From: Chloroflexota bacterium
GTDB taxonomy: Bacteria > Chloroflexota > UBA11872
Length of the DNA: 64,000 nt
Reading direction: 5' to 3'
NCBI GenBank assembly: GCA_022821645.1
Contig: JAJEDE010000024.1
Span: 1-64,000 of the forward strand
In this document: positions 12,082 through 60,611 of the stretch, one piece after another
Numbering within the stretch: the stretch's first letter is position 1
Layout: each line of letters begins with the position of its first letter
Position numbers and translations under genes: made by a program
The notes under the pieces: model-generated
Told to the model about the DNA's origin: nothing
The model's input: the letters and a program-made list of their open reading frames with translations, nothing else
The model's database searches: none

Positions 12082-12144
12082 GCGAGTGCGAGGAGCCATG
12101 AGCTCGAACTCTGTCGGTGTTGCCAGGCGGCAGGAGTGGTGCCG

Positions 12145-44088: not shown

Positions 44089-44907
44089 TTGCGGACAGGC
44101 AACGACAGCCGGCCCGATGAGGCCGGGAGCTCCGTTCCCGGTGACTGGCGCACCGTGCCCCTGGAGCACATTGAACCCAACCCGCAGCAGCCGCGTCGCA
44201 GGTTCGATCCCGAGGACGAGCAAAGCCTGGCCGACTCGATTGCGCGACACGGCGTGCTGCAGCCCTTGTTGGTAACACCATCGACACGCCGCCCCGGGCG
44301 GTTTCTTCTGGTAGCCGGGGAGCGCCGCTGGCGGGCGGCGCGAAGGGCGGGCCTGACGCGGGTGCCGGTTACCGTGATTGCGGCTGATGCCCGGCGACGG
44401 GTGGAGTTGGCGCTGGTCGAGAACCTGCAGCGCAGGGACCTGGGCCCGCTGGAGCGCGCGCACGCCTTCCAGGCACTCATGGACGACTATGGGATGACCC
44501 AGGCCGAGGTGGCGGAGGTCGTGGGCATGAGCCGCTCGTCGGTCGCCAATTCGCTCCGCCTTCAGAAGCTCGATAGCGACATGCGCCAGGCCCTGGCCGA
44601 GGGCCGCATTACCGAGAGCCACGGGCGCACGCTGGTCGGGATTGGCGACGACGAGACGCGGCGTCGGCTTTTTCTCCGCATGCTGACCGGCCGCCTCAAT
44701 CTGCGAGAGGCGGAGCAGGCGGCCCGCCGCACGCTGCAACCGCCGCGGCCGCCCGACCTGGAACTGGAGCATGTCGCCGAGCGCCTGCAGTGGCGGCTGG
44801 GCACGCGCGTCAGATTCGTGGGCACCCGAAAGCGCGGGCGCATCCAGATCGAGTATCGCGATGCGGAGGATCTGGACGTGCTCCTCGGGATGCTCCTGCC
44901 GGAGTGA
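44089..44907 (+). CDS. parB: chromosome partitioning protein ParB
   Basis: 272 residues, TTG start. ParB N-terminal domain with TVPLEHIEPNPQQPRRRF, SIARHGVLQPLLVTP, the CTP/parS-related VAGERRWRAARRAGL and ELALVENLQRRDLGPLERAH; then the HTH DYGMTQAEVAEVVGMSRSSV with LRLQKLDSDMRQALAEG. It loads onto parS and organises the origin region. parA is not adjacent. A perfect parS lies at 58051-58066. Confidence 0.95.
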   Translation: MRTGNDSRPDEAGSSVPGDWRTVPLEHIEPNPQQPRRRFDPEDEQSLADSIARHGVLQPLLVTPSTRRPGRFLLVAGERRWRAARRAGLTRVPVTVIAADARRRVELALVENLQRRDLGPLERAHAFQALMDDYGMTQAEVAEVVGMSRSSVANSLRLQKLDSDMRQALAEGRITESHGRTLVGIGDDETRRRLFLRMLTGRLNLREAEQAARRTLQPPRPPDLELEHVAERLQWRLGTRVRFVGTRKRGRIQIEYRDAEDLDVLLGMLLPE

Positions 44908-44919
44908 TCCGGTCGCCCG

Positions 44920-45552
44920 ATGCGCTGGCGAAGCGGCCTCTGGCGGCCCAGTCCGGTCGCCGGTGCGTTGCTGCTGGCCAACGGCGCCATCTATCTGCTC
45001 CAGGTTGCCCAGGGAGCGGCCGGCCAGGAGTGGTTCATTCGATTCGGGCTGCTCCCCGCCGTGCTCGTCAACGGCGACCGTTTCTCCATCCCCGGGTCGC
45101 CGACGCCCTACGCGTTGACGCTGCTCACATCCTCGTTCCTGCACGGCAACCTGGGGCACCTGGCAGTCAACCTGGCCTTCATCGCCCTGCTCGGCACCCT
45201 GGTCGAGCGGGCCATCGGATCATGGCGGTTTGTTCTCGTCTGGACCGTGGCCGTGGCGGTCGGCGGAATCTTCCACGCCTTGCTGAACAGCGCATCCATC
45301 ATTCCCACCGTCGGCGCCAGCGCCGGAATCGCCGGGTTGATCGGCGTCGTAACCGTTGGCGGATGGGGCGGCCTGCTGGCTGGCGGACTCTGGCTATCGG
45401 TGCAGCTCGTCGGTGCGCTGACCCAGCCGCAGGCGTTTCTTGACCCGGACGTTGCATGGCAAGCTCATTTGGCTGGCTTCGCAACGGGCATCATGAGCGG
45501 GCTGCTCGTGCGCTGGGAGCTTCGACGACGGCGCCGACGGAGCCAACGGTGA
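44920..45552 (+). CDS. rhomboid-family intramembrane serine protease
   Basis: 210 residues, six helices. The catalytic dyad is present: S134 in G132-ASAG136 and H183 in AWQAHLAGFATG. The conserved HGNLGHLAVNLAFI (75-88) in the second helix has the family H and N. It starts 12 nt after parB, so it may share its transcript. Substrates are unknown. Confidence 0.92.
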   Translation: MRWRSGLWRPSPVAGALLLANGAIYLLQVAQGAAGQEWFIRFGLLPAVLVNGDRFSIPGSPTPYALTLLTSSFLHGNLGHLAVNLAFIALLGTLVERAIGSWRFVLVWTVAVAVGGIFHALLNSASIIPTVGASAGIAGLIGVVTVGGWGGLLAGGLWLSVQLVGALTQPQAFLDPDVAWQAHLAGFATGIMSGLLVRWELRRRRRRSQR

Positions 45553-45611
45553 AGGTGAACCCCGCGCGGCCGCCGCGCCACACGCGGACAACGATGGACG
45601 TGGAGGAATGA

Positions 45612-45869
45612 ATGGCTAACCGTCGGCGGTCCACCCGGCGTCGACGCCGCGCGCCGATCCGGCGCGTGGCCCGTCGGCCCAGGCCTCCGGACCAGAGCGC
45701 GGGTCAAACGCCGGCGGCGCCGGAAGCTCCGCGAACGGATGCCTCGCAGGGCCGCGGTACAGCGCGGCTGCTGGCACTGCCGCACCTGCGTCGGGACATG
45801 ACCCTGAGCCTGGGCCTGGGCCTCGGACTGACACTGGTCGTCATTGCCGTCGGGCTGGCGGTCGGCTAG
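45612..45869 (+). CDS. small basic membrane protein
   Basis: 85 residues: an Arg-rich N-terminus (RRRSTRRRRRAPIRRVARRP), a Pro/Ala stretch and one C-terminal helix (MTLSLGLGLGLTLVVIAVGL). GGAGG sits before the ATG. Function unknown; the basic tail could touch nucleic acid or membrane lipids. Confidence 0.5.
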   Translation: MANRRRSTRRRRRAPIRRVARRPRPPDQSAGQTPAAPEAPRTDASQGRGTARLLALPHLRRDMTLSLGLGLGLTLVVIAVGLAVG

Positions 45870-45898
45870 GACGGGCTGGCGCGGCGTGGGCCAGTACA

Positions 45899-45904
45899 TA
45901 TAAT
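45899..45904 (+). promoter_or_regulatory. -10 element TATAAT
   Basis: Exact consensus hexamer 7 bp before the TTG codons at 45911 and 45914. The -35 position (CTGGCG) is poor. Transcription would start almost at the first possible codon, so the mRNA may be leaderless or the true start may lie further in. Confidence 0.5.
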
Positions 45905-45910
45905 CCAGAC

Positions 45911-47872
45911 TTGTTGAGGCGGCGCTGGCGCGGCGTACCGTCGGCTCGGTATGGCGAAGGCGCAACCGTCCGTAGCGACGAAGGAAGGTTCGCGGACCTG
46001 ACCCGCGTACGCATCACGCTCGGAATAGCGGTCATCACGATGCTGATGGCCCTGGCCTTTGGCCCCGCGGCTCTCACCGCCCAGATCACCCCCGGCTTCG
46101 GGCAAATCACGGTCCTCGACTACACGTTCCTCAGCGCGCCGGGGAACGCGACGCTCCAACACAACGTCCCGCGGCTGAGCGTGACGGTGGGCAGCGAGAC
46201 CCTGACGGCCGACTTCCAGGATTTCTATGACCGCACCGGCGGCCTGCAGCGCTGGGGCTTCCCGACGTCCGAGGTGCACGTTGAGGAGAGCGGCACGCTG
46301 ACGCAGTACTACCAGCGCGGGGTCGTCGACTTTCACCGGCGGCCCGACCTGGGGGATGTCTACGTCCTCGAGCGCCGGCTCACCTGGGACTACTTTGGGG
46401 GCGGTGTGGGCGGCAGCCGGGACCTTGGCGTAGAGCCGGGCACCCAGAACAACAACAGCGGCGAGGTGCTGGGGCCGTGGAACCACAAGGTCTCAAACTT
46501 CTCGGTCGGCGGCGTGCAGATTGGATTCCTTGACTTCTTCAACGCGTTTGGCGGTGTGCAGGCCTTCGGGTATCCCAAGACGGAGGCTCGAGTCGACACG
46601 AACGCGCAAGGCACCGTGCACATCGCGGCGGCGACCACAGGATTCATCCGGCAGTACTTCCAGGCCGCCGTGATGGAGTACCACCCGCAGGATCCTGACG
46701 ACCCGGTCAAGCTGCGGCTGCTGGGCGACGACCTGCGGAATCAGAAGTATCCGGCCGATGCGTGGACGCAGTTCGGCGCATTCCGCGCGGCGGTTCCGTT
46801 GGCCGCCGGACAGACGTTCACGCCATCGGTCATTGATCCCCCCACGCCCACCCCGACGCCCACCGCCGACCCCGCCGCGACCGCTACCCCGGCAGCCACT
46901 CCCACGCCAACGACGTCCCCGGGTCCGGCGCGATTGGCGGGCGAGCGCATCGTGGTCGGAACCAACGACGCCGGCATCCTGATCTACGACCGCGATGCCG
47001 ACACCTGGCAGCAGCTTGCTGAGGACCGCTCCGCGCTGAGCACCAACCGGGTGCGGGCCGTGCTGGTGGATCGGGACGGCCAGATATGGGCCGGGACGGA
47101 CGCGGGCCTCGTCCGAATGAACCGAAACGGCGAGGGCGCCCTGTTCGACCGAACCTCCACAAAGAACCAGATCGGGTCGAACGAGGTCACGGCCCTGGCC
47201 GGCCGCCAGGTGTCGAACGTCCTCTGGATGGCCCACCCGCGGCAAGGCGTCAGCTGGTTCGATGGCGGGAGCTGGGACAGGCTCAGGTCCGACAACTCCA
47301 GCCTGCCAACCTCGGACATCGCCCGGGTGCACATGATCCCGGGCGCCGTGGGGGCGGTGATGTTTGCCACGGCGGCCGGTGCGGTGCTCTACGACTCGGA
47401 CGAGAAGAACTGGTACGTCTACGACACCGACAACTCGGAAATCGTCAGCGACAACGTCACGGCCGTCGCGGTCGGTGCGGGTGGAGGCTTATGGTTCGGC
47501 ACCGCCAACGCCGGCCTGTCGCGGACCCTTAACCCCTTGCAGTGGGAACACTACGGTGTCAACCACGGGCTCGGAAGCAACAACATTCGCGACATCCTTG
47601 TCGCCAGCGATGGAACGGTCTGGGTGGCGACCGCCGGGGGCGTGAGCTGGCTGCAGGACGGCGGGTTCTCCACGGCCAACGTCGTGAACGCCGGGCTGCC
47701 GTCCAACAGCGTCCGGGCATTGGCCGAGGACAGCCAGGGGCACATCTGGATAGCGACCGACGGCGGCGTTGGTCGCTTTGATGGCACAACGTGGACGGTC
47801 TATTCGACGGCCGACGGCCTGGCAACCAACAACGCAACCTCAATCGCCGTTGGCGTGGTGACAGGCAGCTAA
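45911..47872 (+). CDS. secreted protein with regulator-type beta-propeller
   Basis: 653 residues if the TTG at 45911 is used. A membrane/signal segment lies at about 33-55 (ITLGIAVITMLMALAFGPAA LTAQ region). Two LGFP-like segments (LQRWGFPTSEVHVEE, VQAFGYPKTEARVDT) follow, then a Thr/Pro linker, then a seven-bladed propeller of Reg_prop type (IWAGTDAGLVRM, LWFGTANAGLSR, VWVATAGGVSWLQDG, IWIATDGGVGRFDG). The second half resembles the sensor part of hybrid two-component proteins, but no kinase is attached. Probably an exported binding protein. Confidence 0.72.
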   Translation: MLRRRWRGVPSARYGEGATVRSDEGRFADLTRVRITLGIAVITMLMALAFGPAALTAQITPGFGQITVLDYTFLSAPGNATLQHNVPRLSVTVGSETLTADFQDFYDRTGGLQRWGFPTSEVHVEESGTLTQYYQRGVVDFHRRPDLGDVYVLERRLTWDYFGGGVGGSRDLGVEPGTQNNNSGEVLGPWNHKVSNFSVGGVQIGFLDFFNAFGGVQAFGYPKTEARVDTNAQGTVHIAAATTGFIRQYFQAAVMEYHPQDPDDPVKLRLLGDDLRNQKYPADAWTQFGAFRAAVPLAAGQTFTPSVIDPPTPTPTPTADPAATATPAATPTPTTSPGPARLAGERIVVGTNDAGILIYDRDADTWQQLAEDRSALSTNRVRAVLVDRDGQIWAGTDAGLVRMNRNGEGALFDRTSTKNQIGSNEVTALAGRQVSNVLWMAHPRQGVSWFDGGSWDRLRSDNSSLPTSDIARVHMIPGAVGAVMFATAAGAVLYDSDEKNWYVYDTDNSEIVSDNVTAVAVGAGGGLWFGTANAGLSRTLNPLQWEHYGVNHGLGSNNIRDILVASDGTVWVATAGGVSWLQDGGFSTANVVNAGLPSNSVRALAEDSQGHIWIATDGGVGRFDGTTWTVYSTADGLATNNATSIAVGVVTGS

Positions 47873-47948
47873 GCGGGCGAAACGCTCGGACCACGCGAAT
47901 TCGGCAGGCGCCCGTTCCGAAGATCCGGCGATGTCCCGAACTGGCGCG

Positions 47949-48644
47949 CTAGTCGCTCAGTCCCGTGCCCTGGTTGCTGTGACGGTCGCGAATGCGCGCC
48001 AGGCGGGCGAATTCGAGCGTCATTCGGCGTGACTCGGTCGAAAGCACGATGTCGTCGGCCAGGAACTGGCTTAAGCCAACTTCAAACAGCAGGTCGTCAG
48101 CCTCGGACCTGTCCAGGCCATAGCCTCGGGCCAGCAACTGCGGCAGGTCGATCGGGGTGGACGGCTCGCGACCTGCCTCCAGGTCGGTGATCACGCTCAC
48201 GCGCACCCCGGCCTTGCGCGCGACTTGCCGGGTGGTCATTCGGTCGGAACGTCGGCGTGTGCGCAGCCGTTCGGCCAGCAGGCCCCGGTCCACGTGGAGC
48301 TGCGTGTCGTCGGTGTCGTCGTGGTCGGGGTTGAGCGTGGTGCTGACGGTGCGCGAGATGGAGCGGATCGCCGATTCCGCCACGCTGGCGATCGTCTCTT
48401 CGGCGAAGCGGCGGCGCGTGCTGGCCATGTCGTCCGGCACGTAGCCGGCCAGTACCAGCAGTTCGCGTGGATCGACTTCCAGCCCCTGGGCCAGCGTTAC
48501 AAGCGTGGCGACGGTGGGACTCTTGTAGTCGCCGCTCTCAAGCCGTGAGAGGTATGAGGGTGCGAGCCCGCAACGCGCGGCAAGCGCCGCCTTGGTCAGG
48601 CGACGCTGTTCGCGGAGTTGTCGGACGGCGTTGGCAAAACCCAT
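47949..48644 (-). CDS. XRE-family regulator with two HTH domains
   Basis: 231 residues. First HTH: LREQRRLTKAALAARCGLAP SYLSRLESGDYKSP with typical helix 3; second: RTRRRSDRMTTRQVARKAGV RVSVITDLEAGREPS. An acidic stretch (NPDHDDTDDTQ) joins them. Two DNA-binding domains in tandem are rare in XRE proteins. It is divergent from osmC with a 195-bp intergenic region that contains short GC-rich inverted repeats, so control of the osmC unit is plausible. Confidence 0.8.
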   Translation of the reverse strand: MGFANAVRQLREQRRLTKAALAARCGLAPSYLSRLESGDYKSPTVATLVTLAQGLEVDPRELLVLAGYVPDDMASTRRRFAEETIASVAESAIRSISRTVSTTLNPDHDDTDDTQLHVDRGLLAERLRTRRRSDRMTTRQVARKAGVRVSVITDLEAGREPSTPIDLPQLLARGYGLDRSEADDLLFEVGLSQFLADDIVLSTESRRMTLEFARLARIRDRHSNQGTGLSD

Positions 48645-48839
48645 GACAGGGGACAGGCACTATAGCTAGCCAGCCTGCCGCATCCAAACCGGCCGCAGTT
48701 TGACGGTAGCCAAACCTGTAGCGCGCGGATGGGCGTGCGCGCTGCGGCGCACAGCGCGTGACGCGGGTGGTACGCGTGGCCGGAAACAGTAACAATCCGC
48801 AGTGGGACCATCGCAGGCACAGAACGGGAAGGCAACGCA

Positions 48840-49286
48840 ATGGCGGACATCGTGCGACGAGCTGACGTCGTCTGGCGCGGCGATTTACTTCAGGGCACGG
48901 GAACGTTCGACGTAGGCAGCGGCGCGCTGACCGCGCAGGCGGTGAGCTGGCCCGCGCGCACGGAGGGCCCGGGCGGCAAGACCAGCCCGGAGGAACTGCT
49001 GGCCGCCTCGCACGCCAGTTGCTACGCCATGGCGTTCTCGCACACGCTGGCCGAGGCCGGGCATCCCCCGGAGGAACTGCGCGTGTCCGCGTCCGTGACG
49101 TTTGAGCCGCTGCTGGCCGGTGGGTTCAAGGTGGGCAGCAGTTCGCTGAGCGTGGAAGGCGTGGTCCCCGGACTGGACCAGGCGGGCTTCGCGGACCTGG
49201 CCGCCCAAGGCGAGGCCGGCTGCCCGATCTCCAACGCCATCCGCGGGAACGTGGACATCTCCGTCGAGGCGACGCTGGCTGGCTAG
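48840..49286 (+). CDS. OsmC/Ohr-family peroxiredoxin
   Basis: 148 residues. Active-site Cys61 in AASHASCYAMAFSHTL and Cys128 in GEAGCPISNAI are the two reactive thiols of OsmC/Ohr enzymes that reduce organic hydroperoxides. The N-terminal WRGDLLQGTGTF strand and KTSPEELLAASH complete the pattern. Likely transcribed with the next small gene. Confidence 0.9.
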   Translation: MADIVRRADVVWRGDLLQGTGTFDVGSGALTAQAVSWPARTEGPGGKTSPEELLAASHASCYAMAFSHTLAEAGHPPEELRVSASVTFEPLLAGGFKVGSSSLSVEGVVPGLDQAGFADLAAQGEAGCPISNAIRGNVDISVEATLAG

Positions 49287-49293
49287 CGGCGCG

Positions 49294-49506
49294 ATGAGTG
49301 ATGGCCGCGCCGAGTTGACGCAGGCGCTGGAGTCTCTATTGCGGGCCATTGGCCCGCCGCCGGCCCCCGCCGCCGACCTCCAGGCCGCCCTGCGCCGCGT
49401 GGACGGCCTGACCCAATCGCTTGGCGCCGACACGCCACCCCAACTCCGCCACTTCCTCCAACGCCGCAGCTACGTCAAAGCCCTGGAATACCTGCAACAG
49501 GGCTGA
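49294..49506 (+). CDS. small helical protein
   Basis: 70 residues, starting 7 nt after the osmC stop: AELTQALESLLRAIGPPPAP, then LQAALRRVDGLTQSLGADTP and LRHFLQRRSYVKALEYLQQG. All alpha, no membrane segment. Position suggests co-expression with OsmC. No family assigned. Confidence 0.6.
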   Translation: MSDGRAELTQALESLLRAIGPPPAPAADLQAALRRVDGLTQSLGADTPPQLRHFLQRRSYVKALEYLQQG

Positions 49507-49724
49507 GGCGGCGTACGGCGAGCAGCGGGACGGGAAGCGCACAAGCGACGTACGGCCGCACCATTCGGCTGATCGGTGCGGGCTTGACGGGCAATTGACA
49601 ACCCCGGGCACGGTGGGTAGAACAGATGGCAGGGTCGGCTGAATGGACGACCCGTGCCCAAGTTGTCGCAGGCTTGAGTTGAGACGGGCGGTCCTCCACA
49701 CAAGCTCACTGATCGGGGAACCGC

Positions 49725-49961
49725 ATGACCGCCGAAGCGCCTGTTGAAACCCTGACCCGCGCCGAGTTGCGTGAGGAGTTGGACCGAAGCCTTGCCCACT
49801 ACGCAACCAAGGCCGACCTCAAGGACCTTGAAATCACGTTGACGTCGGCAATCGGCACGGTCCAGATCCGCCTGATGATGTGGACGCTGTTCCTGGTGAG
49901 CGTTGCCACCGGCGTCCTGATCGCGGTCGACAAGCTGACCGGACCCGCGACCGGCGGCTAA
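49725..49961 (+). CDS. small membrane protein with coiled coil
   Basis: 78 residues: a coiled-coil-like N-terminus (TLTRAELREELDRSLAHYAT, KADLKDLEITLTSA) and one C-terminal helix (IRLMMWTLFLVSVATGVLIA). The ATKADLKDLE piece is common in small CCDC90/DUF1640-like proteins. Function unknown. Confidence 0.55.
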   Translation: MTAEAPVETLTRAELREELDRSLAHYATKADLKDLEITLTSAIGTVQIRLMMWTLFLVSVATGVLIAVDKLTGPATGG

Positions 49962-49992
49962 CCAGCGTCTCCGGGCGAAGCCGCGTCAGCTT

Positions 49993-50085
49993 GCGCACAT
50001 CCGCCGCTACTTGGTCCACCAGCGGCATGGTCTTGGCAGCTTCGGCGACGTTGGTGAGGGGTTGGGCGCCGGCCTGGATGCCCTC
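49993..50085 (-). pseudogene. 3'-end fragment of a Gfo/Idh/MocA gene
   Basis: Encodes IQAGAQPLTNVAEAAKTM and PLVDQVAADVR. It matches the end of the intact gene at 53892 (IQAGTQPLTNFAEAAKTM) over 93 bp, with 80 identical by my count, offset 3902. The stop codon TAG of the intact gene is AAG here. The LRR gene lies between the two copies. Confidence 0.8.
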
Positions 50086-50215
50086 AGCCGTGCGATTCGG
50101 GTCCTTGCGGCTGGGACGGTTGGGGCCCTCGGGCCGCGGAAGCGGTTCGGCGGCCGGAGCGCGTAGCCTTTGGTAAGCGTTGATTCGATGCGGCGAGTGC
50201 TTTGGAGGCCGTCTG

Positions 50216-53200
50216 GTGCGCGAGCCAAGCCGAGCCACTCGTCGTCCCTGGTGGCGCTCCTGGGTCGTGGTGTTGCCGCTGGCGCTGCTGCTCGTAGCGG
50301 CCGTGCTTGCCCTGCGGACGACCCAAAGGGAAGAGGCGGTGGCTCCCAGTGCTCAAGCCACCGCCTTGCCGGTGGACGGCCCGACCGTGCCATTGGTAAC
50401 GCCGCCTGGAGCGGTCGTGAGCTCGATACAGCGAACCCCTGGCGAGCCAGGCCCGGCTGTGGATGGTCCGGTTGCCAGCCCCGCGCATCGCTCTCCCCAG
50501 TCCGAACCGCTCCCGCGCGGCCGTCCGAGCACCGTAGTGCCGCAACTGCGACAGATCCCCCTTGCCCTTGTGGCGACACCGCCGGCATTCCGCCTGGTAT
50601 GCGCGCAGGGCACAGCCATTCCGAATCCCGACACGGAGGCCGCTTTGGTTGCGGACTGCCAGGTTCTGCTGGCGATACGCGACATTCTGAGGGCGGATGC
50701 ATCGCTCAACTGGAGCGCTGACCGCCCGATGGGGGAATGGCAGGGCATCGAGGTCGGTGGCACGCCCCGTCGGGTCCAGGCGCTGGTTCTGGACGGCGCC
50801 CCGCACGGCGGGAGCATCCCGCCGGAACTCGGCCGCCTCACAGGACTACGGGACTTGCAGATCAGTCGCAACGCATCGATTGGCGCGATACCTCCGGAGC
50901 TCGGGAAGCTCACCGACCTTCAGACGCTCAACCTCCTGGGCAACCAGCTCACGGGACTGATCCCTCCAGAGCTTGGGCGCCTGAGCAATCTGACGTCGCT
51001 GCGCCTCGGCCACAACCAGATCGAAGGCGGCATCCCGCCAGAGTTCAGCCAACTGACGCTCCTGGAGAATCTCAGCCTCTACAACAACCGCCTGACGGGC
51101 CCAATTCCCCTGGAGTTGGGCCGGCTCGAAAACCTGCACAGCCTCACGCTTGGCGCCAACGACCTGACCGGCGAGATTCCAGCCGAGCTTGGCCGGCTGA
51201 GCCAGCTGCAGTCACTTGATCTCGGCGCCAACGACTTGACCGGTCCTATTCCGCTGGAATTGACACAGTTGACCAACCTGAAGGTGTTGAGCCTCGGCGG
51301 TAGCGGACTCACGGGCGCAATCCCGGCAGCTATTGGTGACCTGTCGAACCTGCAGCGGCTTGAACTCGGCAGCACGCAGCTTTCCGGCCCCATCCCGCCT
51401 GCGCTGGGGCGCCTTGGGAACTTGAGATTCCTGAATCTGACGCTCACCAGCATTTCGGGAGGCATCCCGCCGGAATTGGGCCGGCTGTCCCGCCTGGAAA
51501 CGTTGGGCCTCAACTACAACGGCCTGACCGGACCGATCCCCGAGGAACTGGGGCAGCTGACCGCACTCAAGACGCTTTATCTGGAAGGCAACGACCTGAC
51601 GGGGCCGATACCGGCGGCCCTGGGTGAACTGACCGCCCTGGAAGTCATGCTGCTAGGCAACAATCGGCTATCCGGGCCCATCCCGCCCGAACTTGGCGGG
51701 CTGTCGAACCTTATCCAACTGTCCCTGGACGTCAATCTACTCAGCGGGCCAATACCCGCTGAACTTGGCGGACTATCAAGACTCCAGGAACTAGATCTGA
51801 GCGGCAATCGTCTGACCGGCCCGATCCCGACGGAACTGACCAAGCTTTCGGAACTAACCACGCTACAGCTCGGGAGCAATCACCTTTCCGGCGGAATCCC
51901 GGCGGCCATCAGCGAGCTGTCGAACCTGCGGAGACTCGGCCTTAGCGCCAACAAGCTGACGGGATCGATACCGCCAACGCTGGGCTACCTGCCGAATCTG
52001 GAGTTCTTGGCGCTCTCCAGCAACGAGTTGACGGGTGCTATTCCTGCGGAACTTGGCGGTCTGCCCAACCTGACCAAACTCGCCCTGTCGTACAACCAAC
52101 TGTCCGGCCCCATACCAGAAGAGTTGACACCACCAAAGCTGAGGAACCTCTACCTGAGCCACACCTTGATCTCCGGTTCAGTCCCTGCGGAACTGGGGCA
52201 GTTGCCGCATCTGCGGGATCTCCGGATTAGCCACGCTCAATTGACGGGCGCAATCCCGCCGGAGTTGGGCCAGCTGGCAAACCTGGAGGTGCTCAACCTG
52301 CGAAGCAACCGGCTGACCGGCGCGGTTCCATCGGAACTCGGCGAACTATCGAAACTGGATTGGCTTGGCCTTCGGGGCAACGAGCTCTCCGGATGCCTTC
52401 CGGCGGGCTTGGCCCGCGTGCCGGAGAGAGATTTCGGGCCGCCCGACCAGCCGCTCTGCAGCGAAGTGGCGGTGACGGATGCAAGCCCGGATTCGAGCGC
52501 CGCCGCACGCGGCAGCGAGGACCCCGCGGACGGCGGCGCTTGCTCCGCCGGATTCGTGGTGCCGCAGCCCCAAGCGAACAGCGGTCTGGTGCGGGACTGC
52601 CAGATCCTGTTCGAGGTGCGCGACGCGATCGGCGCCACGGCCGGACTGAACTGGGGCGCGAGCAATCCCATCAGCACGTGGGAAGGGGTGGTGCTCGGCG
52701 GATCGCCGTCCCGAGTTCGCGAGGTCGAACTGCGGTGGCGAGGCCTGGCAGGTCCGGTTCCGGCGGTGCTCGGCGAACTGGACGCCCTCACGCTGCTGTG
52801 GCTTACCGGCAACGATCTGACTGGCGGCATCCCACCTGAGTTGGGCGGCCTCCAGCAGCTCCAGGAACTGGACCTCTCCGATAACCGATTAACGGGCCCG
52901 ATACCTCCCGAAGTCGGCGACCTCGACCAACTGCAGGACTTGCGGCTTTCGGGCAACGAGCTTTCCGGCTCGATTCCGACGTCGCTAGACGCCTTGAGCA
53001 ATCTGGTTGTGCTGTCCTTGTCCTCCAACAGCCTGACCGGCTCCATCCCTGTCGAGTTGGCCAACCTGAGCCAGCTCAGACGCTTGAGCCTTGGCTACAA
53101 CGCGCTAACGGGGCGGATTCCGCCGGAATTGGGCCAGTTGGGCCAGTTGCACGAGCTGTCGATAGGCAGCACCGAAGTGACAGGTCCGATTCCTGCGGCG

Positions 53201-53833
53201 TTGGGCGACCTTGCCGAACTGAGAGCGCTTTATCTCCGCGGCAATCAGTTGACGGGCCAGATTCCGGCGGAACTCGGACGGCTGGCCAAGCTGACCGCCC
53301 TGCACCTGGACAACAACCAGCTAGCGGGGCCGATCCCGGCAGCATTGGGCCAGTTGGGCACCCTCTGGGAACTCTGGCTCTACGGCAACCAACTCTCGGG
53401 CCCGATCCCGCCGGAACTTGGACAAGCGGCAGACCTCCGGTGGATTGATCTTCGCGGCAACCACCTGACAGGCCCCATCCCGTTGGAGTTGGGCCACCTG
53501 ACCAAACTGACGCGCCTCTTTTTGGCATACAACCGGCTCACCGGTCCTATCCCGGAGACAATTGGCCAACTGGTGGACTTGCAGTCGCTGCGCTTGTCCA
53601 ACAATGAACTGTCAGGCTCGATTCCGGATGCACTGGGCCAGTTGCCGAACCTGGAGCTCTTGTATCTCGCCCATAACCAACTGTCGGGGCCGATCCCCGC
53701 GGCGCTCGAAGAGTTGGCCAACCTGGAGCGACTGGGCCTTGCGGGCAACGACTTGACAGGGTGTTTACCCGCCAAACTGGAGGCTGTTCCGGAGAGAGAC
53801 ATTGGCCCGCCCGAGCATCCGTTGTGCGAATAG
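50216..53833 (+). CDS. giant leucine-rich-repeat protein, two complete LRR modules
   Basis: 1205 residues from a GTG at 50216 with GGAGG 7 nt upstream. A membrane helix (about 13-34) anchors it, then a Ser/Pro/Ala stretch. Module 1 opens DCQVLLAIRDIL...LNW and WQGIEV, has about 22 repeats of the LxGxIPxELGxLxxLxxLxLxxN form, and closes LSGCLPAGLARVPERDFGPP. Module 2 opens DCQILFEVRDAI...LNW and WEGVVL, has about 14 repeats and closes LTGCLPAKLEAVPERDIGPP. The repeat type is the 24-residue plant-specific LRR, including the DW..W capping region. No kinase or LPXTG is attached. Probably a surface protein for binding. Confidence 0.88.
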   Translation: MREPSRATRRPWWRSWVVVLPLALLLVAAVLALRTTQREEAVAPSAQATALPVDGPTVPLVTPPGAVVSSIQRTPGEPGPAVDGPVASPAHRSPQSEPLPRGRPSTVVPQLRQIPLALVATPPAFRLVCAQGTAIPNPDTEAALVADCQVLLAIRDILRADASLNWSADRPMGEWQGIEVGGTPRRVQALVLDGAPHGGSIPPELGRLTGLRDLQISRNASIGAIPPELGKLTDLQTLNLLGNQLTGLIPPELGRLSNLTSLRLGHNQIEGGIPPEFSQLTLLENLSLYNNRLTGPIPLELGRLENLHSLTLGANDLTGEIPAELGRLSQLQSLDLGANDLTGPIPLELTQLTNLKVLSLGGSGLTGAIPAAIGDLSNLQRLELGSTQLSGPIPPALGRLGNLRFLNLTLTSISGGIPPELGRLSRLETLGLNYNGLTGPIPEELGQLTALKTLYLEGNDLTGPIPAALGELTALEVMLLGNNRLSGPIPPELGGLSNLIQLSLDVNLLSGPIPAELGGLSRLQELDLSGNRLTGPIPTELTKLSELTTLQLGSNHLSGGIPAAISELSNLRRLGLSANKLTGSIPPTLGYLPNLEFLALSSNELTGAIPAELGGLPNLTKLALSYNQLSGPIPEELTPPKLRNLYLSHTLISGSVPAELGQLPHLRDLRISHAQLTGAIPPELGQLANLEVLNLRSNRLTGAVPSELGELSKLDWLGLRGNELSGCLPAGLARVPERDFGPPDQPLCSEVAVTDASPDSSAAARGSEDPADGGACSAGFVVPQPQANSGLVRDCQILFEVRDAIGATAGLNWGASNPISTWEGVVLGGSPSRVREVELRWRGLAGPVPAVLGELDALTLLWLTGNDLTGGIPPELGGLQQLQELDLSDNRLTGPIPPEVGDLDQLQDLRLSGNELSGSIPTSLDALSNLVVLSLSSNSLTGSIPVELANLSQLRRLSLGYNALTGRIPPELGQLGQLHELSIGSTEVTGPIPAALGDLAELRALYLRGNQLTGQIPAELGRLAKLTALHLDNNQLAGPIPAALGQLGTLWELWLYGNQLSGPIPPELGQAADLRWIDLRGNHLTGPIPLELGHLTKLTRLFLAYNRLTGPIPETIGQLVDLQSLRLSNNELSGSIPDALGQLPNLELLYLAHNQLSGPIPAALEELANLERLGLAGNDLTGCLPAKLEAVPERDIGPPEHPLCE

Positions 53834-53891
53834 CAGCTGAAGCGGCTCGAGCCGGATGGTTGGCAACGTCCGTCCGACCTAGACCCTCCGC

Positions 53892-54860
53892 CTAGCGCAC
53901 CTCCGCCGCGATCTGGTCGACCAGGCGCATGGTCTTGGCAGCCTCGGCGAAGTTGGTGAGGGGTTGCGTTCCGGCCTGGATGCTCTCCATGAAGTGACGG
54001 CTCTCCGCATGGAAGCCCGAGACGCGGTGCCGGACATCGCCAACCAGGTCCGCCCCGCGTACGACCTCGGGAGTGGTCGAGTCGTCGCGGTAGATCATGC
54101 CCTCCTCGCCGTCCTCCCAGTAGGCGGAGACGTCGCCGCCGTGGATTTCGAAGGTGTGGCGGCGGGCGCCCGCGCGGCGGCTGGCCAGCAGCACGCCCGA
54201 GCAGCCGGTGGAGAATTCGATCAGCGCGGCATGCACGTTTATGTAGGGGCGGCCCAGCGCGCGGGTGTGGGCGTTCACCTCCACCACCTCGCCGCCGGCC
54301 AGAAACCGCAACGAGTCGACGGCATGAATGATGTCGGAAGTCAGGTGACTGACGGATCCCCGGTAGAAGCCGTACTGGTCGGACCAGGTGTCGAATTTGT
54401 GGAACCGCGCGGCGGCCATGTGGATAGGACCGGCTGCTTCCACGACCCCCTTGCAGTGGCGCAGCAGCGGGATGAAGCGGCGGTTGAAGCCGGTCATGGT
54501 CAGGCAGCCGTGCTGCTCGGCGTACCAGGCAAAGGCCTCCGTCTCGTAGGTTGAGACGCCGGGCGGCTTCTCGATGAAGACGTGTTTCCCGGCCTGCAGG
54601 CAGTCGATCACGATGTCGTGCAACAGGTGCGGCGGCATCACCACGTATACGGCGTCCAGGTCCTCGCGCTCCAGCATCCGGCGGTAGTCCGTGTAGCGCC
54701 CGGGCACGTCGTACTGGTCGGCGGTGGCGGTCAGCTTGTCCTCGTCCAGCTCCGAAATCGCCCGCAGGTCCGTCGCCTCGATCTCATCAAGCGACGGGTA
54801 ATGCACCAGGCTCGCCAAATTCCCTGCCCCCACAAACCCAACCCTCACCGGATCACTCAT
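53892..54860 (-). CDS. Gfo/Idh/MocA-family oxidoreductase
   Basis: 322 residues. RVGFVGAGNLASLVHYPSLD is the Rossmann nucleotide site, VYVVMPPHLLHDIVIDCLQA and GKHVFIEKPPGVSTYE hold the family EKP motif, and SDIIHAVDSLRFLAGG gives the catalytic His helix. Its 3' end is duplicated at 49993-50085 on the far side of the LRR gene. Substrate unknown, probably a cyclic sugar or polyol. Confidence 0.88.
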   Translation of the reverse strand: MSDPVRVGFVGAGNLASLVHYPSLDEIEATDLRAISELDEDKLTATADQYDVPGRYTDYRRMLEREDLDAVYVVMPPHLLHDIVIDCLQAGKHVFIEKPPGVSTYETEAFAWYAEQHGCLTMTGFNRRFIPLLRHCKGVVEAAGPIHMAAARFHKFDTWSDQYGFYRGSVSHLTSDIIHAVDSLRFLAGGEVVEVNAHTRALGRPYINVHAALIEFSTGCSGVLLASRRAGARRHTFEIHGGDVSAYWEDGEEGMIYRDDSTTPEVVRGADLVGDVRHRVSGFHAESRHFMESIQAGTQPLTNFAEAAKTMRLVDQIAAEVR

Positions 54861-55041
54861 GCGTTGCTCCCTGACAGCACGCCGTCCGCGGTGATCCTAC
54901 GCCCCGGCCGGACGCAGTGGTGTCGGCCCAGCGTGCGCTGACCTAAGCGCTTGCACCGAGAGAAGATATTCGGTCCGCCCTCCCTATACTTCGCGTCGGG
55001 CGGAACTGGAATGCGCGGCCTGGAGCGGGCGGGATGGGTCG

Positions 55042-56922
55042 ATGACGGATGCGACTTTGGGCTCCAGGCGCCCACTTGTGTTTCTGCCCTTCGCCGGGCC
55101 ACGGTTTCAGCGGGCGATCAGGCAGCTACGCGATTCCCGCCTGAAACGGCTAGCGTTCAAGACGATCAAGCGGCTCTGCCAGGACGACCGCAGCCCGGGC
55201 CTGAACAGCGAGGTGCTGCGGTCGCTCGGCGACGCGTTGGAATCTCGCTCGGCGCGCGTAGCCCAGGGCCAGGGCGCACCCCGATTGATCTTCGCCCGAG
55301 ACGGTACCCGGATCGTGGCTCTTTGGGTCGATTACCACGACGCAGCCTATGACTGGGAACGGCGTAACTGGGCACGTATACCCGAGTACGCCAAAGCGGC
55401 GGCACCGCTGCGCCTGGAAGGGACGCCCCCGCCGATTCCACGCACTGCGGCTGACGCGCAGCTCCACGTGCCGGACCCCGACCTGCTGGGCGACCTGGAG
55501 GCGGCAAGTTACGAGGAGTACTTCGCGGCTCTTGACGACGACCAGCGCGCCTATGTCTACAGCGAAGGGGTGTCCTTCCTCACCGCCGGCGCTGGCACGG
55601 GCAAGACCTCGATCGCGATCCGGCGCGCGCTGCACCTGGCCGCACAACCGGAGCTCGGCGGCGGGCGCGTGCTCTACCTCTGCTACAACCGAGCACTAAT
55701 GCTCACCGTCCGCCGCGCCATCAACGCGCTCGGCACGCCGGAGATGGCGCGAGAGGTTGAAGTAAACACGGTCCACGGCTGGGCGGACGCGTACCTACAG
55801 AAGCGGGAGCCCGGTTTCTCCGTCGAGGCATCCGTTGACATCGATGGCGCATGGCTGCGGTCAGCGATTCCTCAGGAGGTTCCGCAGCTGTCTGAGGAGG
55901 AGCGACAGGCGATCGCGGGACTATCCGCGCGTGATGTCCTGGAGAACGAGATCAAGCACGTCCTCAGCCCCAACCAGTTCGACACAATCGAGCCGTATCT
56001 GAACCTCACGCGGCCGGAGAGTCAGGGGCTGATACGGCTGCGGCGTCCGCAGCGGCAGGCGATGTGGGCGCTGCACCAGCGCATCCGCGGGCGAAGCGAT
56101 GCCAAGGGAACCTGGGACGACCTGATCGAACGGGCGCGCGCCGTGCTAGCGGCCGACGCCGATCCGCCGCGCTACCGCGCTGTAATCGTGGACGAGGGGC
56201 AGGACTGCTCGCCGGCGATGGCGAGGCTGGCCAGGGGGTTGGCAGCCGACGACGCACGGCGTCTCCTGGTGTTGGCAGATCCGGCGCAGGAACTGTATCC
56301 GGGAACTTTCCTCTGGGCGCGGCGAGAGTTTCGCCCTGGCGGAGGTCGGGCCCGCGTTCTGCGCCGGCCCTATCGCTCGACTCGGCAGATTCACGCCCTG
56401 GCAGCTTCGCTCTACGCCGGGGTGGAAGAGACGCGGCGTGAAATCGATGAGATGACCGAGTCCCAACGCGAGGGCCCGCTTCCGCGGCTGGCCAGATTCG
56501 CCACGGAGCGGGAGGGCCTTGAGGCCATTGTTGGATGGATTGGCGCGGAAATTGCGCAAGGCCGACCTGCAGGCCAGATAGCGGTGCTTACGGGTAGCAA
56601 CCGCCAGCGAGACGAAGCGTCCGCCACGCTCGGCCGCGCTGGCGTGCCGGTGACTACCGTGGACCGCACCGCGCCGCCAGACAGCGTATCGGTTTCGCTC
56701 GCTACGGTGAATGCCGCGAAAGGGTTGGACTTCACATCGGTCTACCTGCTGGACCCCGGTCTGAGATTCGGCTCGCCCAACAGTCGACGAGCGCGGTTCT
56801 ACGTGGCGATCACGCGGTCCAGCCGCTACTTGTGCATCGTCTGCTGCCGAGAGGCCGGCTCGCCGCTGCTCGACGATCTTGATCCCGCGTGCTACGTGCG
56901 GATTGGCGGGACAGCGACCTAG
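55042..56922 (+). CDS. UvrD-like superfamily 1 helicase with RelE-like N-terminal domain
   Basis: 626 residues. Residues about 15-110 resemble the RelE/ParE fold (RFQRAIRQLRDSRLKRLAFK, SPGLNSEVL, LIFARDGTRIVALWVDYHDA, AAYDWERRN). The helicase follows: Q168 motif, Walker A TAGAGTGKTS (K188), LYLCYNRALMLTVRRAI, VNTVHGWADAYL, Walker B VIVDEGQDCSPAM, LVLADPAQELYP, LRRPYRSTRQIHALAASLY, SVSLATVNAAKGLDFTSVYL and VAITRSSRYLCIV. It is a DNA or RNA helicase with a toxin-like module, a layout seen in some proteins of unknown or defensive function. Confidence 0.8.
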   Translation: MTDATLGSRRPLVFLPFAGPRFQRAIRQLRDSRLKRLAFKTIKRLCQDDRSPGLNSEVLRSLGDALESRSARVAQGQGAPRLIFARDGTRIVALWVDYHDAAYDWERRNWARIPEYAKAAAPLRLEGTPPPIPRTAADAQLHVPDPDLLGDLEAASYEEYFAALDDDQRAYVYSEGVSFLTAGAGTGKTSIAIRRALHLAAQPELGGGRVLYLCYNRALMLTVRRAINALGTPEMAREVEVNTVHGWADAYLQKREPGFSVEASVDIDGAWLRSAIPQEVPQLSEEERQAIAGLSARDVLENEIKHVLSPNQFDTIEPYLNLTRPESQGLIRLRRPQRQAMWALHQRIRGRSDAKGTWDDLIERARAVLAADADPPRYRAVIVDEGQDCSPAMARLARGLAADDARRLLVLADPAQELYPGTFLWARREFRPGGGRARVLRRPYRSTRQIHALAASLYAGVEETRREIDEMTESQREGPLPRLARFATEREGLEAIVGWIGAEIAQGRPAGQIAVLTGSNRQRDEASATLGRAGVPVTTVDRTAPPDSVSVSLATVNAAKGLDFTSVYLLDPGLRFGSPNSRRARFYVAITRSSRYLCIVCCREAGSPLLDDLDPACYVRIGGTAT

Positions 56923-56985
56923 ACAGTCCTGGCTGGCTGCTTGTCGGACCGCCGCCACTCGACAGGCCGGGGTAAAACGGCGGGG

Positions 56986-57987
56986 CTAGCTAGCGGTGGC
57001 TTGGATGAGGGCGCGGAGGTAGCCGACGCACCAGGCGCGGGCGCGTTCGCGTGCTTCGTTGTCGCCCAGCAGGCCGGGGTAGTGGTCGGGCATCACGAAG
57101 CCGTCGAACCCGACCTCGTGCAGCGTGCGCATCTGGTCGGCCGCGTTGTAGTCGCCCTCGTCCTGGAAGACTTCCTCGAAGCGCGGGATGACGCCGCGCA
57201 CGTTGCGGAAGTGGATTGTGAACAGCTTGCCCTGCTCGCCAAACGAGCGCAGCGCGGCCGGCATGTCTTCGCCTGTCTCCTGCATGGTGCCCAGGCAGAA
57301 CAGCAGGCCGACGTTGGGGCTGTCGTAGCGCTCCAGTAGTTGCTGGAGCCCGGCCGGATTGATGAACGGCTGCTCGACGCCGCGGTAGAGCGGCAGCGGC
57401 GGGTCGTTGGGGTGGAAGGCCAGGCGCACGCCGGCCGATTCGGCGGCCGGCAGGACGCGCTCCATGAAGCCGTCCATGCGGCGCCAGACCTCGTCGATCG
57501 GCACTCGCACGGCCGGGTCGCCGGTGTCGATGCCCCAGGTCACCAGGTCCGACTCCTCGACCCAGGCGGCGTCGAAGGTCCGAAGCTCGGTGCCGGCGCG
57601 TCCGCCCGGCAGGTCCTTGTAGCCGCGCCAGCCCTGGACGTGTTCGTCGGCATGAGCCACGGCAAAACCGCAAGTGACCAGCGGGGCGCCCTCGCCGCCG
57701 AGGACGCGGATCGTCTCGCAGAGGTCGTCGATTTCGTGAGCGCCCTCGGGATCGCCACGCAAAACGCCGGCGATGCGGGCGCGGCGCAGCTCCATGCCGG
57801 CCAGTTCGAGGTTCAGGGCGTCCAGGCGCTGGAGCAGGTCGCGCAATCCGGCGGCGTCGACCTGACCGGTTTCGGCCACGCCCGGCAAATCGTCGGTGCC
57901 CAGCGTGCCGCCGTCCACGCCGATCTGCGCCGCGTATTGCAGGTGGTCGTCAGAGAGGTCGACGAACCGAAGGCCAATCCTGATCAT
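56986..57987 (-). CDS. uxuA: mannonate dehydratase-like enzyme
   Basis: 333 residues. TIM barrel with the UxuA pattern: GVRLAFHPNDPPLPLYRGV, VGLLFCLGTMQETGEDM, TIHFRNVRGVIPRFEEVFQD EGDYN, and FVMPDHYPGLLGDNE, supplying the His, Cys, His and Asp metal ligands. Mannonate dehydratase converts D-mannonate to 2-keto-3-deoxygluconate in glucuronate breakdown. The N-terminal third diverges from the E. coli type. No kdgK or eda is near; the Gfo/Idh/MocA enzymes in the window may provide upstream steps. Confidence 0.8.
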   Translation of the reverse strand: MIRIGLRFVDLSDDHLQYAAQIGVDGGTLGTDDLPGVAETGQVDAAGLRDLLQRLDALNLELAGMELRRARIAGVLRGDPEGAHEIDDLCETIRVLGGEGAPLVTCGFAVAHADEHVQGWRGYKDLPGGRAGTELRTFDAAWVEESDLVTWGIDTGDPAVRVPIDEVWRRMDGFMERVLPAAESAGVRLAFHPNDPPLPLYRGVEQPFINPAGLQQLLERYDSPNVGLLFCLGTMQETGEDMPAALRSFGEQGKLFTIHFRNVRGVIPRFEEVFQDEGDYNAADQMRTLHEVGFDGFVMPDHYPGLLGDNEARERARAWCVGYLRALIQATAS

Positions 57988-58042
57988 GCGCGCAGGGTAC
58001 CCGCGGGAAACGCCAGCTGGCTATCGGGCCGGAGACGAACGC

Positions 58043-58074
58043 CGCCCGAATGTTTCACGTGAAACATTCGGGCG
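58043..58074. repeat. 32-bp perfect palindrome centred on parS
   Basis: CGCCCGAA (58043-58050), the 16-bp parS, then TTCGGGCG (58067-58074), followed by TTTTCG. The extended arms are not part of the ParB consensus. As RNA it would form a terminator-like hairpin, but it lies between divergent genes. Confidence 0.85.
58051..58066. promoter_or_regulatory. parS centromere site
   Basis: TGTTTCACGTGAAACA, the exact consensus for ParB loading in bacterial chromosomes. parB is encoded 13 kb away in the same window, next to oriC. It is intergenic, between the divergent mannonate dehydratase and YbdK-like genes. Confidence 0.93.
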
Positions 58075-58104
58075 TTTTCGTTCGGTTAGTCGAGGCCGCG
58101 TAGC

Positions 58105-59292
58105 ATGGCGGTCCAGGTTGACGGGGGTGCGCGCGTGACAGCCTTCATCGACGGGCTGCCGGACTTCACGATCGGGGTCGAAGAGGAATACCTGATCGTC
58201 GATCCCGACACCCGGGACCTGGTGGCCAACCCGCCGCGGGCGCTGCTGCACGAATGCGAAGCGGCCGTCCCGGCGGACGTCGGCAGCGTCGGCCCGGAGT
58301 TGCTGCGCTCCCAGATTGAGGTCGGCACCAGCGTGTGTGGGTCGATCGCCGAGGTCCGCGAGCGGTTGGCGACGCTGCGACGCACCCTTGCTCACACCCT
58401 GGCGGCGCACGAGTTGCGGATCGTGTCGGCCTCTACCCATCCGTTCGCGCTCTGGTCACGGCAGTTGCCCACGGACCGGGAGCGCTACAAGGCGCTGACG
58501 GAAGACATGCAAACGCTGGCGCAACGCATGGTGATCGGCGGGATGCACGTGCACGTGGGCATCCCGGATCCGCAGGACCGGATCGACGTGCTGAACCAGA
58601 TCACCTACTTCCTGCCGCACCTGCTGGCGCTCAGCACCTCGTCGCCCTTCTGGCAGGGCCGAGATACCGGCCTGCGCAGCTACCGGCTGACGATCCTGCA
58701 CGAGCTTCCACGCACCGGGCTGCCGGAGCGGTTCGAGAGCGAGGGCGAGTACCAGCGCATGATCCAGAGCCTGCTGGACGCCGGGCTGATCGACGATCCG
58801 ACGAAGGTCTGGTGGGACGCGCGGCCGCACGCGCGGCTGCCGACCCTGGAGATGCGGATCACCGACGCCTGCACCAGCCTGGACGACGCGGTCTGCATCG
58901 CGGCGCTGTACGTGTGCGTGGTGTCCCTGCTGGCGCGGATGCGCCGGGCCAACCAGCGCTGGCGCATGTACCCGCTGGCGCTGCTGGCCGAGAACTCGTG
59001 GCGCGCGCAGCGCTACGGGATCGACAACGGGCTGGTGGATTTCGGCCAGAACCGCATCAAGCCGCTGGACGTGCTGATGGAGGAGCTGCTGGACCTGATC
59101 CGCGAGGACGCCGAACGGCTGGACTGCGTGGCCGAGGTGGAACACGTCCGCACCATCCTGTCCCGCGGCACCAGCGCCCACCGCCAAATCGCCGTCTACG
59201 AATCCCAGCGTCGCGCCGGCGCCACCGAGCAGGAGGCGCTGGACGCCGTCGTGGACTGGCTGATCGAGGAGACGACGGCGGGAACTGGCTGA
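58105..59292 (+). CDS. carboxylate-amine ligase, YbdK/GCS2 family
   Basis: 395 residues. FTIGVEEEYLIVDPDTRDLV (22-41) is the family start, MHVHVGIPDPQDRIDVLNQI (about 148-167) and TLEMRITDACTSLDDAVCIA are the ATP/metal-binding parts of glutamate-cysteine ligase type 2. Members form gamma-glutamyl or related amide bonds. The closing residues DWLIEETTAGTG are duplicated at 60792-60830. A GTG at 58135 is an alternative start. Confidence 0.88.
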   Translation: MAVQVDGGARVTAFIDGLPDFTIGVEEEYLIVDPDTRDLVANPPRALLHECEAAVPADVGSVGPELLRSQIEVGTSVCGSIAEVRERLATLRRTLAHTLAAHELRIVSASTHPFALWSRQLPTDRERYKALTEDMQTLAQRMVIGGMHVHVGIPDPQDRIDVLNQITYFLPHLLALSTSSPFWQGRDTGLRSYRLTILHELPRTGLPERFESEGEYQRMIQSLLDAGLIDDPTKVWWDARPHARLPTLEMRITDACTSLDDAVCIAALYVCVVSLLARMRRANQRWRMYPLALLAENSWRAQRYGIDNGLVDFGQNRIKPLDVLMEELLDLIREDAERLDCVAEVEHVRTILSRGTSAHRQIAVYESQRRAGATEQEALDAVVDWLIEETTAGTG

Positions 59293-59303
59293 GGTCGCTC
59301 GCG

Positions 59304-60611
59304 CTAGCGGAGCAGCTTGAGAAGCCTTGAAAGGCCGGTCAGAAAGAGCGCCGTTAGACAGCCGCTACCTTTTGCGGCTTCGGTCGTCGGTCTCTCAGAT
59401 GCAGCGGATTGCGTAGAACTGGTGCCTTGGCTGCGGCTGACGGTTGACGCATTCGGTGATTCGCCGACGGCAGGCGATCGAGGGCGATGACCGTTCCAGG
59501 GAGGATCGATGCGACTAATCAGGCTCGCCTCGATCGGTGCCGGGTCAGGGTTCTCGTGGATCCAGAGGTCAATCTGGCAGCCTTCGCGGGCAGCCCGCAA
59601 GAGGTACTTGTTGACTTTGCAGTTCGTGGACTGTCCGTTCTCGTAGCAGGCCCTGGGGGAGATGTTCGCGTAGCCGGCCGGTCCCCAGCGCTTGGCAAGG
59701 TTGACGGCTACGCCGACGTATACCGGCACGTTGTCGACGGTCACGACGTAGACGCCGGAGGTCCGGGGAAGCCCCTCTATGAAGAACCGGCAGAACGGCC
59801 CCGATCCGTAGCGGTTGAGCCGCATAGCCGTCGCGCTGGCATACCGAGACTGCGGTGTGAGCTCCAATAGAGCGCCGTCGGGATCCCGCTCCGGCTCGAT
59901 TGCCGCGGCATGTACGAATGCACGATCCAGAAGACGCAGAGTTCCCAAGCCCTCGGCTCCTGAAACCGTGGCATCGGAACTCTCTTCAAGAAATTCCAGG
60001 AGAGCACGGCCTGTCCTCACGAATACGAGGGTTTCGTCGGCGAGGTTTACCTGACGGGTCTTCCATCCGGCAGCCGCCCATGCACGGGTTTGGCTAGGGC
60101 CGTTTTCGACGTTTGCCCACCATGGCCGCCACTTGCGGGCCGAGGCGGGCAGGCTGAATCCCAGGACCTGCTCGATCTGATCGAACGTTGCCGCCCACTC
60201 GTTTCCGTCGAATTCGGTAAGGAAGCGGCGCAGAGGATCGTACTTGCCGACACTCTCAACTGATGCGTGGCGAAATTCGTCGTACTCGGTCCTGCTTCTC
60301 CCGGCTGGGAACGCTTGCAGGCCGCGCTCCCCGGACATGCCACTTGCCGGCAAGAGTCGGAACTCGATTTCCAAGTTCGCCCCGAGCCCCGATGGAGGCC
60401 GATATAGATAGCGGACAAACTCCACGTCTGCCTGTCTTTCGAATAATCCGCCCTCAAGCACTTGGCACACATTGGGATGGCGATTACGCAACCCCAGCTG
60501 GTCGTGAACGTCGCCGGCGCGGAAAGTCACCATCGTCGCGCCCGCCTGCCTGGCGGCGTCGACTTGCCGGCATAGGTAATTGCGGATTCGTCGGGCGTCG
60601 CCTCGCGGCAT
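59304..60611 (-). CDS. wHTH - DUF7662 - GIY-YIG nuclease fusion
   Basis: 435 residues. Part 1 (about 5-88) is winged-helix-like: FRAGDVHDQLGLRNRHPNVC QVLEGG. Part 2 (about 122-200) is the DUF7662-type domain also found at 11246: KYDPLRRFLT, TFDQIEQVLGFSLPASARKW, PWWAN, RAWAAAGWKTRQVNL. Part 3 (about 284-375) is a GIY-YIG nuclease with G286-V-Y, V297-Y-V-G300, R308 and E361, all the catalytic positions. The C-terminus adds a Ser/Thr-rich stretch and a short hydrophobic end. It probably cuts DNA. It is enclosed by a duplicated gene end (see 60788). Confidence 0.75.
   Translation of the reverse strand: MPRGDARRIRNYLCRQVDAARQAGATMVTFRAGDVHDQLGLRNRHPNVCQVLEGGLFERQADVEFVRYLYRPPSGLGANLEIEFRLLPASGMSGERGLQAFPAGRSRTEYDEFRHASVESVGKYDPLRRFLTEFDGNEWAATFDQIEQVLGFSLPASARKWRPWWANVENGPSQTRAWAAAGWKTRQVNLADETLVFVRTGRALLEFLEESSDATVSGAEGLGTLRLLDRAFVHAAAIEPERDPDGALLELTPQSRYASATAMRLNRYGSGPFCRFFIEGLPRTSGVYVVTVDNVPVYVGVAVNLAKRWGPAGYANISPRACYENGQSTNCKVNKYLLRAAREGCQIDLWIHENPDPAPIEASLISRIDPPWNGHRPRSPAVGESPNASTVSRSQGTSSTQSAASERPTTEAAKGSGCLTALFLTGLSRLLKLLR

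Follow-up and report, generated by a model that had tools for sequence, protein, structure and literature searches.

How a gene comes to lie between two copies of its neighbour's 3' end is the question raised by one locus in the window, the 64-kb stretch of DNA that was analysed as a whole and that represents contig C13 of a draft genome of 3.55 Mb (28 contigs, estimated contamination 7.13%). At this locus, an intact gene for a Gfo/Idh/MocA-family oxidoreductase of 322 amino acids (53892..54860, minus strand; Pfam GFO_IDH_MocA, E 4e-21), with orthologues of 62-98% identity in 12 of 12 congeners, adjoins a long LRR gene, and a second copy of the oxidoreductase gene end is found on the far side of the latter.

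The repeat and the gene that it encloses

The oxidoreductase gene closes with a stop codon at 53892-53894, and its last 96 nt (53892-53987) recur in the same orientation, on the minus strand, at 49990-50085, with 82 of 96 positions identical (85.4%). The earlier note had described a 93-bp repeat (53895-53987 at 49993-50085, 86%), and this stretch was recovered with 13 mismatches; it excludes the stop codon, and the full repeat spans 96 nt. A chance origin is excluded, since the next-best match of the left copy elsewhere in the 64-kb window, on either strand, reaches 50 of 96, the pair is recovered by BLAST with an E value of 1.8e-25, and the left copy also matches the oxidoreductase as protein (34 residues, 74%, E 6e-8) with the reading frame of the gene kept. 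The 14 mismatches over 96 bp leave a longest exact run of 16 bp; if an att core is old, it could have decayed.

The LRR gene had been claimed as the sole content between the copies, and indeed one intact ORF of 3.65 kb (50180..53833, plus strand) and no other gene was found there. Its product of 1217 amino acids contains plant-type LRRs (Pfam LRR_1, E 1e-110; LRR_8, E 2e-90), two cap-like segments in its interior and, at the N-terminus, a hydrophobic stretch, RSWVVVLPLALLLVAAVLAL, which by inspection is a putative membrane anchor. The ORF is preceded by 94 bp of LRR-gene upstream region (50086..50179, plus strand), where the inserted DNA starts and which has no match elsewhere in the genus (a DNA search of 13 genomes reported none besides the window itself), and is followed by 58 bp (53834..53891) that lead from the LRR stop codon to that of the oxidoreductase. 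The last 18 bp of this spacer (53874-53891) align to the native spacer of G007 with a marginal p of 0.016; as proof of native flanks on both copies, so short and marginal a match was rejected.

No integrase was found in the insert, as the earlier note had observed, and the two tyrosine-integrase genes of the whole genome both lie on contigs other than that of the window. Similarly, an inverted-repeat scan found no arm pair at the two insert ends, a tRNA search of the 64-kb window found none, and an Rfam search of 44000-60000 gave no match. Searches for a donor with the LRR 5' region (400 genomes of the phylum) and with the insert (phages and plasmids) returned nothing closer than approximately 55% protein identity, with partial cover.

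The site in congeners

A comparison with close relatives had been suggested along with the original observation, and in five congeners (G004, G006, G007, G008 and G009) the site was found uninterrupted, with the gene order OsmC, a 70-amino-acid ORF, p78 and the oxidoreductase, a single oxidoreductase 3' end and no LRR gene. The small ORF p78 (78 amino acids; 49725..49961, plus strand), which natively lies downstream of the oxidoreductase in these genomes, shares 85-95% nucleotide identity with its five counterparts and gave no match in a Pfam search. When the window was aligned to G007, positions 47024-50085 corresponded to G007 6861-9965 and positions 53874-54864 to G007 9852-10842, and the two blocks overlap by 114 bp in G007, which therefore points to an insertion with a 114-bp target duplication.

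A single oxidoreductase 3' end without an LRR gene was also seen in G005, G010, G011 and G012, with other cargo or none. No cargo gene occupies the site in G010, G005 and G011 have a gap of approximately 0.8 kb with an ORF of 220-260 amino acids that has no Pfam match (L050 8401-9223 and L056 9260-10078), and the gap in G012 is similar in size. At the corresponding site, G001 has another LRR gene, lacks p78 and shows a single oxidoreductase 3' end. This gene was considered as an orthologue of the window's LRR gene and rejected, as the two are about 45% identical, no better than other paralogues; because it is so distant a paralogue, the G001 gene is, judging from the comparison, a separate acquisition. 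An LRR gene in a locus without repeats had been named beforehand as a finding that would speak against the proposal, and G001 does argue in part against a strict coupling of LRR gene and repeat, its LRR gene being a distant paralogue.

The two copies of the gene end differ in how they have changed. Five changes at first or second codon positions separate the left copy from the consensus of the congeners, the loss of the stop codon among them, while the right copy differs by eight third-position changes and one first-position change. Moreover, the left copy joins p78 via a 28-nt spacer (49962..49989), for which the empty sites of G008 (p 0.002) and G009 (p 0.012) provide matches, and is thus the one with the native flank. 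Because of this flank, the lost stop codon and the contrast between position-1/2 changes on the left and mainly third-position changes on the right, the left copy (49990..50085, minus strand) is read as the displaced, decaying and non-functional original end, and the right copy (53892..53987, minus strand) as the restored and maintained one. Taken together, these alignments demonstrate insertion of the LRR gene, duplication of the target end and displacement of the original end.

On the other side of the oxidoreductase gene, a UvrD-like helicase gene (55042-56922) is 89% identical in G006 and G009 and about 70% identical in G001, G004, G007 and G002, and is unmatched between the flanking genes in G005, G008, G010, G011 and G012; the pattern may be read as an allele or gene replacement beside the oxidoreductase.

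Footprints at other genes

Among the LRR loci surveyed in the genus, a hotspot was found where a TPP-enzyme gene and a zinc-type dehydrogenase gene converge. The two genes are 22 bp apart in G003, and in seven other genomes the gap is filled with one to five LRR genes and dehydrogenase 3'-end fragments of about 160-300 bp. The hotspots of the window's genome (G000) and of G005 additionally carry a TPP-enzyme end, and the TPP repeat extends about 130 bp beyond the stop codon. Across the hotspot loci (L109 at G000:C14:80001-100000, L131, L135, L143, L144, L150 and L151), the intact dehydrogenase is always at one edge, and in the G001 hotspot a native terminator-like hairpin is displaced along with the fragment.

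Two genomes allow the site to be compared with and without one of these insertions: G004 1397-8057 corresponds to G001 59-6718 and G004 7772-12395 to G001 8821-13443, and this 286-bp duplication around a new LRR gene makes a clean before-and-after pair. The gene LRR-A (G011_16703 and G012_9354, 88.9% identical over 1886 bp) abuts the intact dehydrogenase in G011, but in G012 its neighbour is a gene-end fragment and further LRR genes are closer to the dehydrogenase, an arrangement that fits serial insertion at the intact dehydrogenase end; such serial stacking is demonstrated by the arrays. One G011 fragment shares 99.3% identity with the intact dehydrogenase end, and the sequence past the stop codon is unrelated, which excludes a simple tandem duplication there. 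Furthermore, the dehydrogenase fragments of roughly the codon-246 class have a common inner junction, and since the adjoining LRR-upstream sequence is common to them too, this joint must have arisen once and spread afterwards.

The survey was extended to stretches without LRR genes, covering 400 kb of the window's genome and 400 kb each of G002 and G045, with the genomes sampled as 20-kb stretches. Two similar footprints were found in the window's genome. In one, a lactonase 3' end is duplicated (160 bp, 95%) around genes for Yip1-like membrane proteins (L248 2631-2790 and 4855-5014, G000:C24), and lactonase gene-end fragments are also present in G005, G007 and, on another contig, G006. In the other, the 3' end of a CN-hydrolase (nitrilase-like) gene is duplicated (93 bp, 84%) around a 3.8-kb insert without an LRR gene (L250 5550-5642 and 9455-9547, G000:C12); this case, and not that of the lactonase, was retained by a stricter automatic filter. 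With two such footprints lacking LRR genes in 400 kb, an LRR-specific mobility was rejected. No footprint of this kind was found in 400 kb each of G002, which served as control, and G045, and the sample is too small for a firm claim of enrichment.

Several further repeats were set aside: those in L120, L141 and L152, like several others, include short repetitive motifs of a dispersed kind, and those in L108 are plausibly a tandem gene duplication. Two cases involve gene starts. In the window, the first 177 bp of a 468-amino-acid ORF recur (81%) as a truncated copy 1.1 kb upstream (10990-11166 and 12133-12309), with a PIN-domain (VapC-like) ORF between the copies, an arrangement that amounts to a 5'-end version of such a footprint; in L138 (6752-6926 and 10397-10571, G006:C60), the 5' region of a methyltransferase-like gene is duplicated (175 bp, 85%) on both sides of an LRR gene. 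Finally, a 170-bp intergenic repeat in the window (8346-8513 and 9067-9236, 92%) has CCCTCACCC-rich motifs that are seen in other loci too and is probably a dispersed repeat.

How the LRR gene may have been gained

The explanation that we prefer, and hold to be probable, is that the LRR gene was gained by insertion at the oxidoreductase 3' end, with duplication of approximately 96-114 bp of the target end, via the cell's own recombination. General or illegitimate recombination suits the observations better than a site-specific enzyme because such footprints are found at unrelated genes, around different cargo and at lengths of 93-315 bp, and it is these unrelated targets and variable lengths, together with the lack of an integrase in the insert and on the contig and of terminal repeats, that favour the cell's own enzymes. 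In such an event, the incoming DNA would have held an LRR gene beside a homologous oxidoreductase end; homologous recombination inside the oxidoreductase gene would have been combined with an illegitimate join on the other side (homology-facilitated illegitimate recombination, as defined in PMC3240628). Alternatively, a circle with the LRR gene and the gene end may have integrated by a single crossover. Whether one-sided or by single crossover, the recombination is proposed to be RecA-dependent, and once the direct repeats are in place, RecA could use them to delete or amplify the LRR gene or to pass it on. The arrays between the TPP-enzyme and dehydrogenase genes look like the outcome of repeated events of this type. 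ComEC and DprA homologues are present in the genome and lend weak support to DNA uptake, being common genes and no proof of competence.

Several observations count against this preferred explanation. The direction of import is unproven, as the last 97 bp of the intact oxidoreductase gene, 90-96% identical to congeners, are not clearly foreign. A foreign origin of the restored gene ends was considered and not adopted: the clade signal at the 3' end is 1-2% against 2-11% upstream in the dehydrogenase and about 1% in the oxidoreductase, and the TPP-enzyme gene varies equally along its length, which is suggestive only. The inner junction shared by dehydrogenase fragments means that these illegitimate events are not independent, and a site-specific recombinase would leave a fixed boundary too. 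Moreover, the fragments, at 93-315 bp, are shorter than expected if breakpoints fell at random in a 1-kb gene, the LRR gene of G001 at the corresponding site comes with no duplication, and the control G002 is without events in 400 kb.

A wider reading, which is doubtful at present, would treat genes for surface proteins (LRR, Yip1-like) in these sponge symbionts as recombination cassettes that lack a recombinase of their own; each would bring along or pick up a copy of a conserved gene's 3' end and use it as a homology tag for RecA. These cassettes would stack at the intact end, with the last one in next to the gene, and could be looped out or move from strain to strain, working like a gene-cassette array without integrase or attC.

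Phage 21 and e14 integrate at icd and carry a substitute for the gene end, and genomic islands and prophages at gene 3' ends are known from this icd-type attachment. By analogy, it is conceivable, if unlikely, that the LRR gene belongs to a cargo-only element with its own substitute gene end that was integrated site-specifically at the oxidoreductase 3' end by an integrase acting in trans. The likeness to icd-type insertions is considerable: the gene end is restored by the insert, the original end is found on the far side, still beside its native flank, homology in most cases stops close to or exactly at the stop codon, inserts stack serially at one gene end, and the dehydrogenase arrays share an inner junction. 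What separates the inserts from such islands is that they are small and, at the window's site, limited to a single gene, that none of those examined holds an integrase and the genome's two are off the contig, that no exact run in the repeat exceeds 16 bp, that at least five unrelated genes serve as targets with duplications of 93-315 bp, and that the TPP repeat passes the stop codon by about 130 bp. The earlier note had seen in the locus the footprint of a genomic island at a gene 3' end; of this, insertion with a duplicated end stands, given the empty sites of congeners and the displaced left copy, while an island of the integrase type is not supported, as integrase and terminal inverted repeats are lacking and the copies share no exact run longer than 16 bp. 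An insertion sequence or transposon differs as well, in that the duplication here is about 100 bp, not 2-14 bp, and terminal inverted repeats are lacking.

A tandem duplication of the gene end together with the LRR gene, after which one LRR copy was lost, is very unlikely and already contradicted by the empty-site comparisons, even though tandem LRR and Yip1-like arrays exist and LRR genes have plausibly been duplicated in tandem, upstream region included, in L108. The empty site offers no LRR gene to duplicate, only the native spacer stands between p78 and the left copy, the flanks of the copies differ just past the stop codon, as is also the case for the 99.3% identical ends in G011, and the G004/G001 pair is a clean insertion. 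The idea that the left copy is a remnant of an old paralogous oxidoreductase gene with no relation to the LRR gene could draw on the 71 family matches in the genome and on the mere 85% identity of the copy; it is highly improbable, however, given that the copy occupies the very position of the orthologue's 3' end in congeners, native spacer included, and that the nearest genomic paralogue is 52% identical as protein. Least credible is an assembly artefact in which a p78-oxidoreductase strain was joined to an LRR-oxidoreductase strain in the MAG, which would look alike in a contaminated draft of 28 contigs, as the disabling changes of the left copy are unlike any functional allele, no sequence is shared at the 50085/50086 junction, and the same pattern recurs in independently assembled congeners.

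The closest described counterpart to the insertion that we propose is the insertion with long target duplication of restriction-modification genes in H. pylori (Nobusato et al. 2000, as cited in PMC1643837 and PMC3031569). In both, judging from the account given in these citing papers, an insert on the scale of a single gene is set against an empty allele, with a long and variable direct duplication of the target and no known transposase or integrase. Empty alleles were found here in relatives (window and G007, G001 and G004), as were direct repeats of 96-114 bp in the window and 286 bp in G001, without transposase, integrase or terminal inverted repeats. The cargo differs, being LRR (or Yip1-like) genes here and, in that account, restriction-modification genes, although cargo is a reported association and not part of the mechanism; in addition, the duplicated stretch here is the end of a neighbouring gene, insertions stack serially at the dehydrogenase, and the repeats are older (85%). 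The window thus adds a case with new cargo to the known insertions with long target duplication. The anatomy expected from homology-facilitated illegitimate recombination (PMC3240628), with one homologous and one non-homologous junction, is the same, and the difference is that here the process is deduced from sequence, the donor allele not being found among 400 genomes of the phylum, phages and plasmids. The flexible genomic islands that are exchanged by homologous recombination in aquatic bacteria (PMC4033161) similarly have variable cargo between conserved flanking genes; as described there in outline, whole cassettes are replaced via the conserved flanks, in contrast to the cargo addition with remaining gene-end copies seen here. 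For arrays of stacked gene ends and LRR genes, no description was found in the literature searched.

The host clade is read as marine-sponge-associated Chloroflexota MAGs, from isolate names such as COS and RHO and from PMC6306507, where eukaryotic-like LRR proteins are described in sponge-symbiont Chloroflexi. Phylum, type of habitat and protein class agree with the present case, and that paper, in the parts relevant here, reports the presence of LRR proteins and does not take up the route of their acquisition. The LRR gene probably encodes a membrane-anchored surface protein that contacts the sponge host, a role that has been proposed for repeat proteins of this type in general.

The insert is a genuine scar of gene gain of a rarely documented type, and no new kind of mobile element. 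It provides clean before-and-after evidence for a seldom-documented route of gene gain outside restriction-modification genes, and the gene-end fragments are a searchable marker of such hotspots. The setting is that of uncultured sponge symbionts, in which repeat proteins are thought to mediate life inside the animal, and insertions of this type offer a possible explanation for the differences in LRR repertoire among close relatives.
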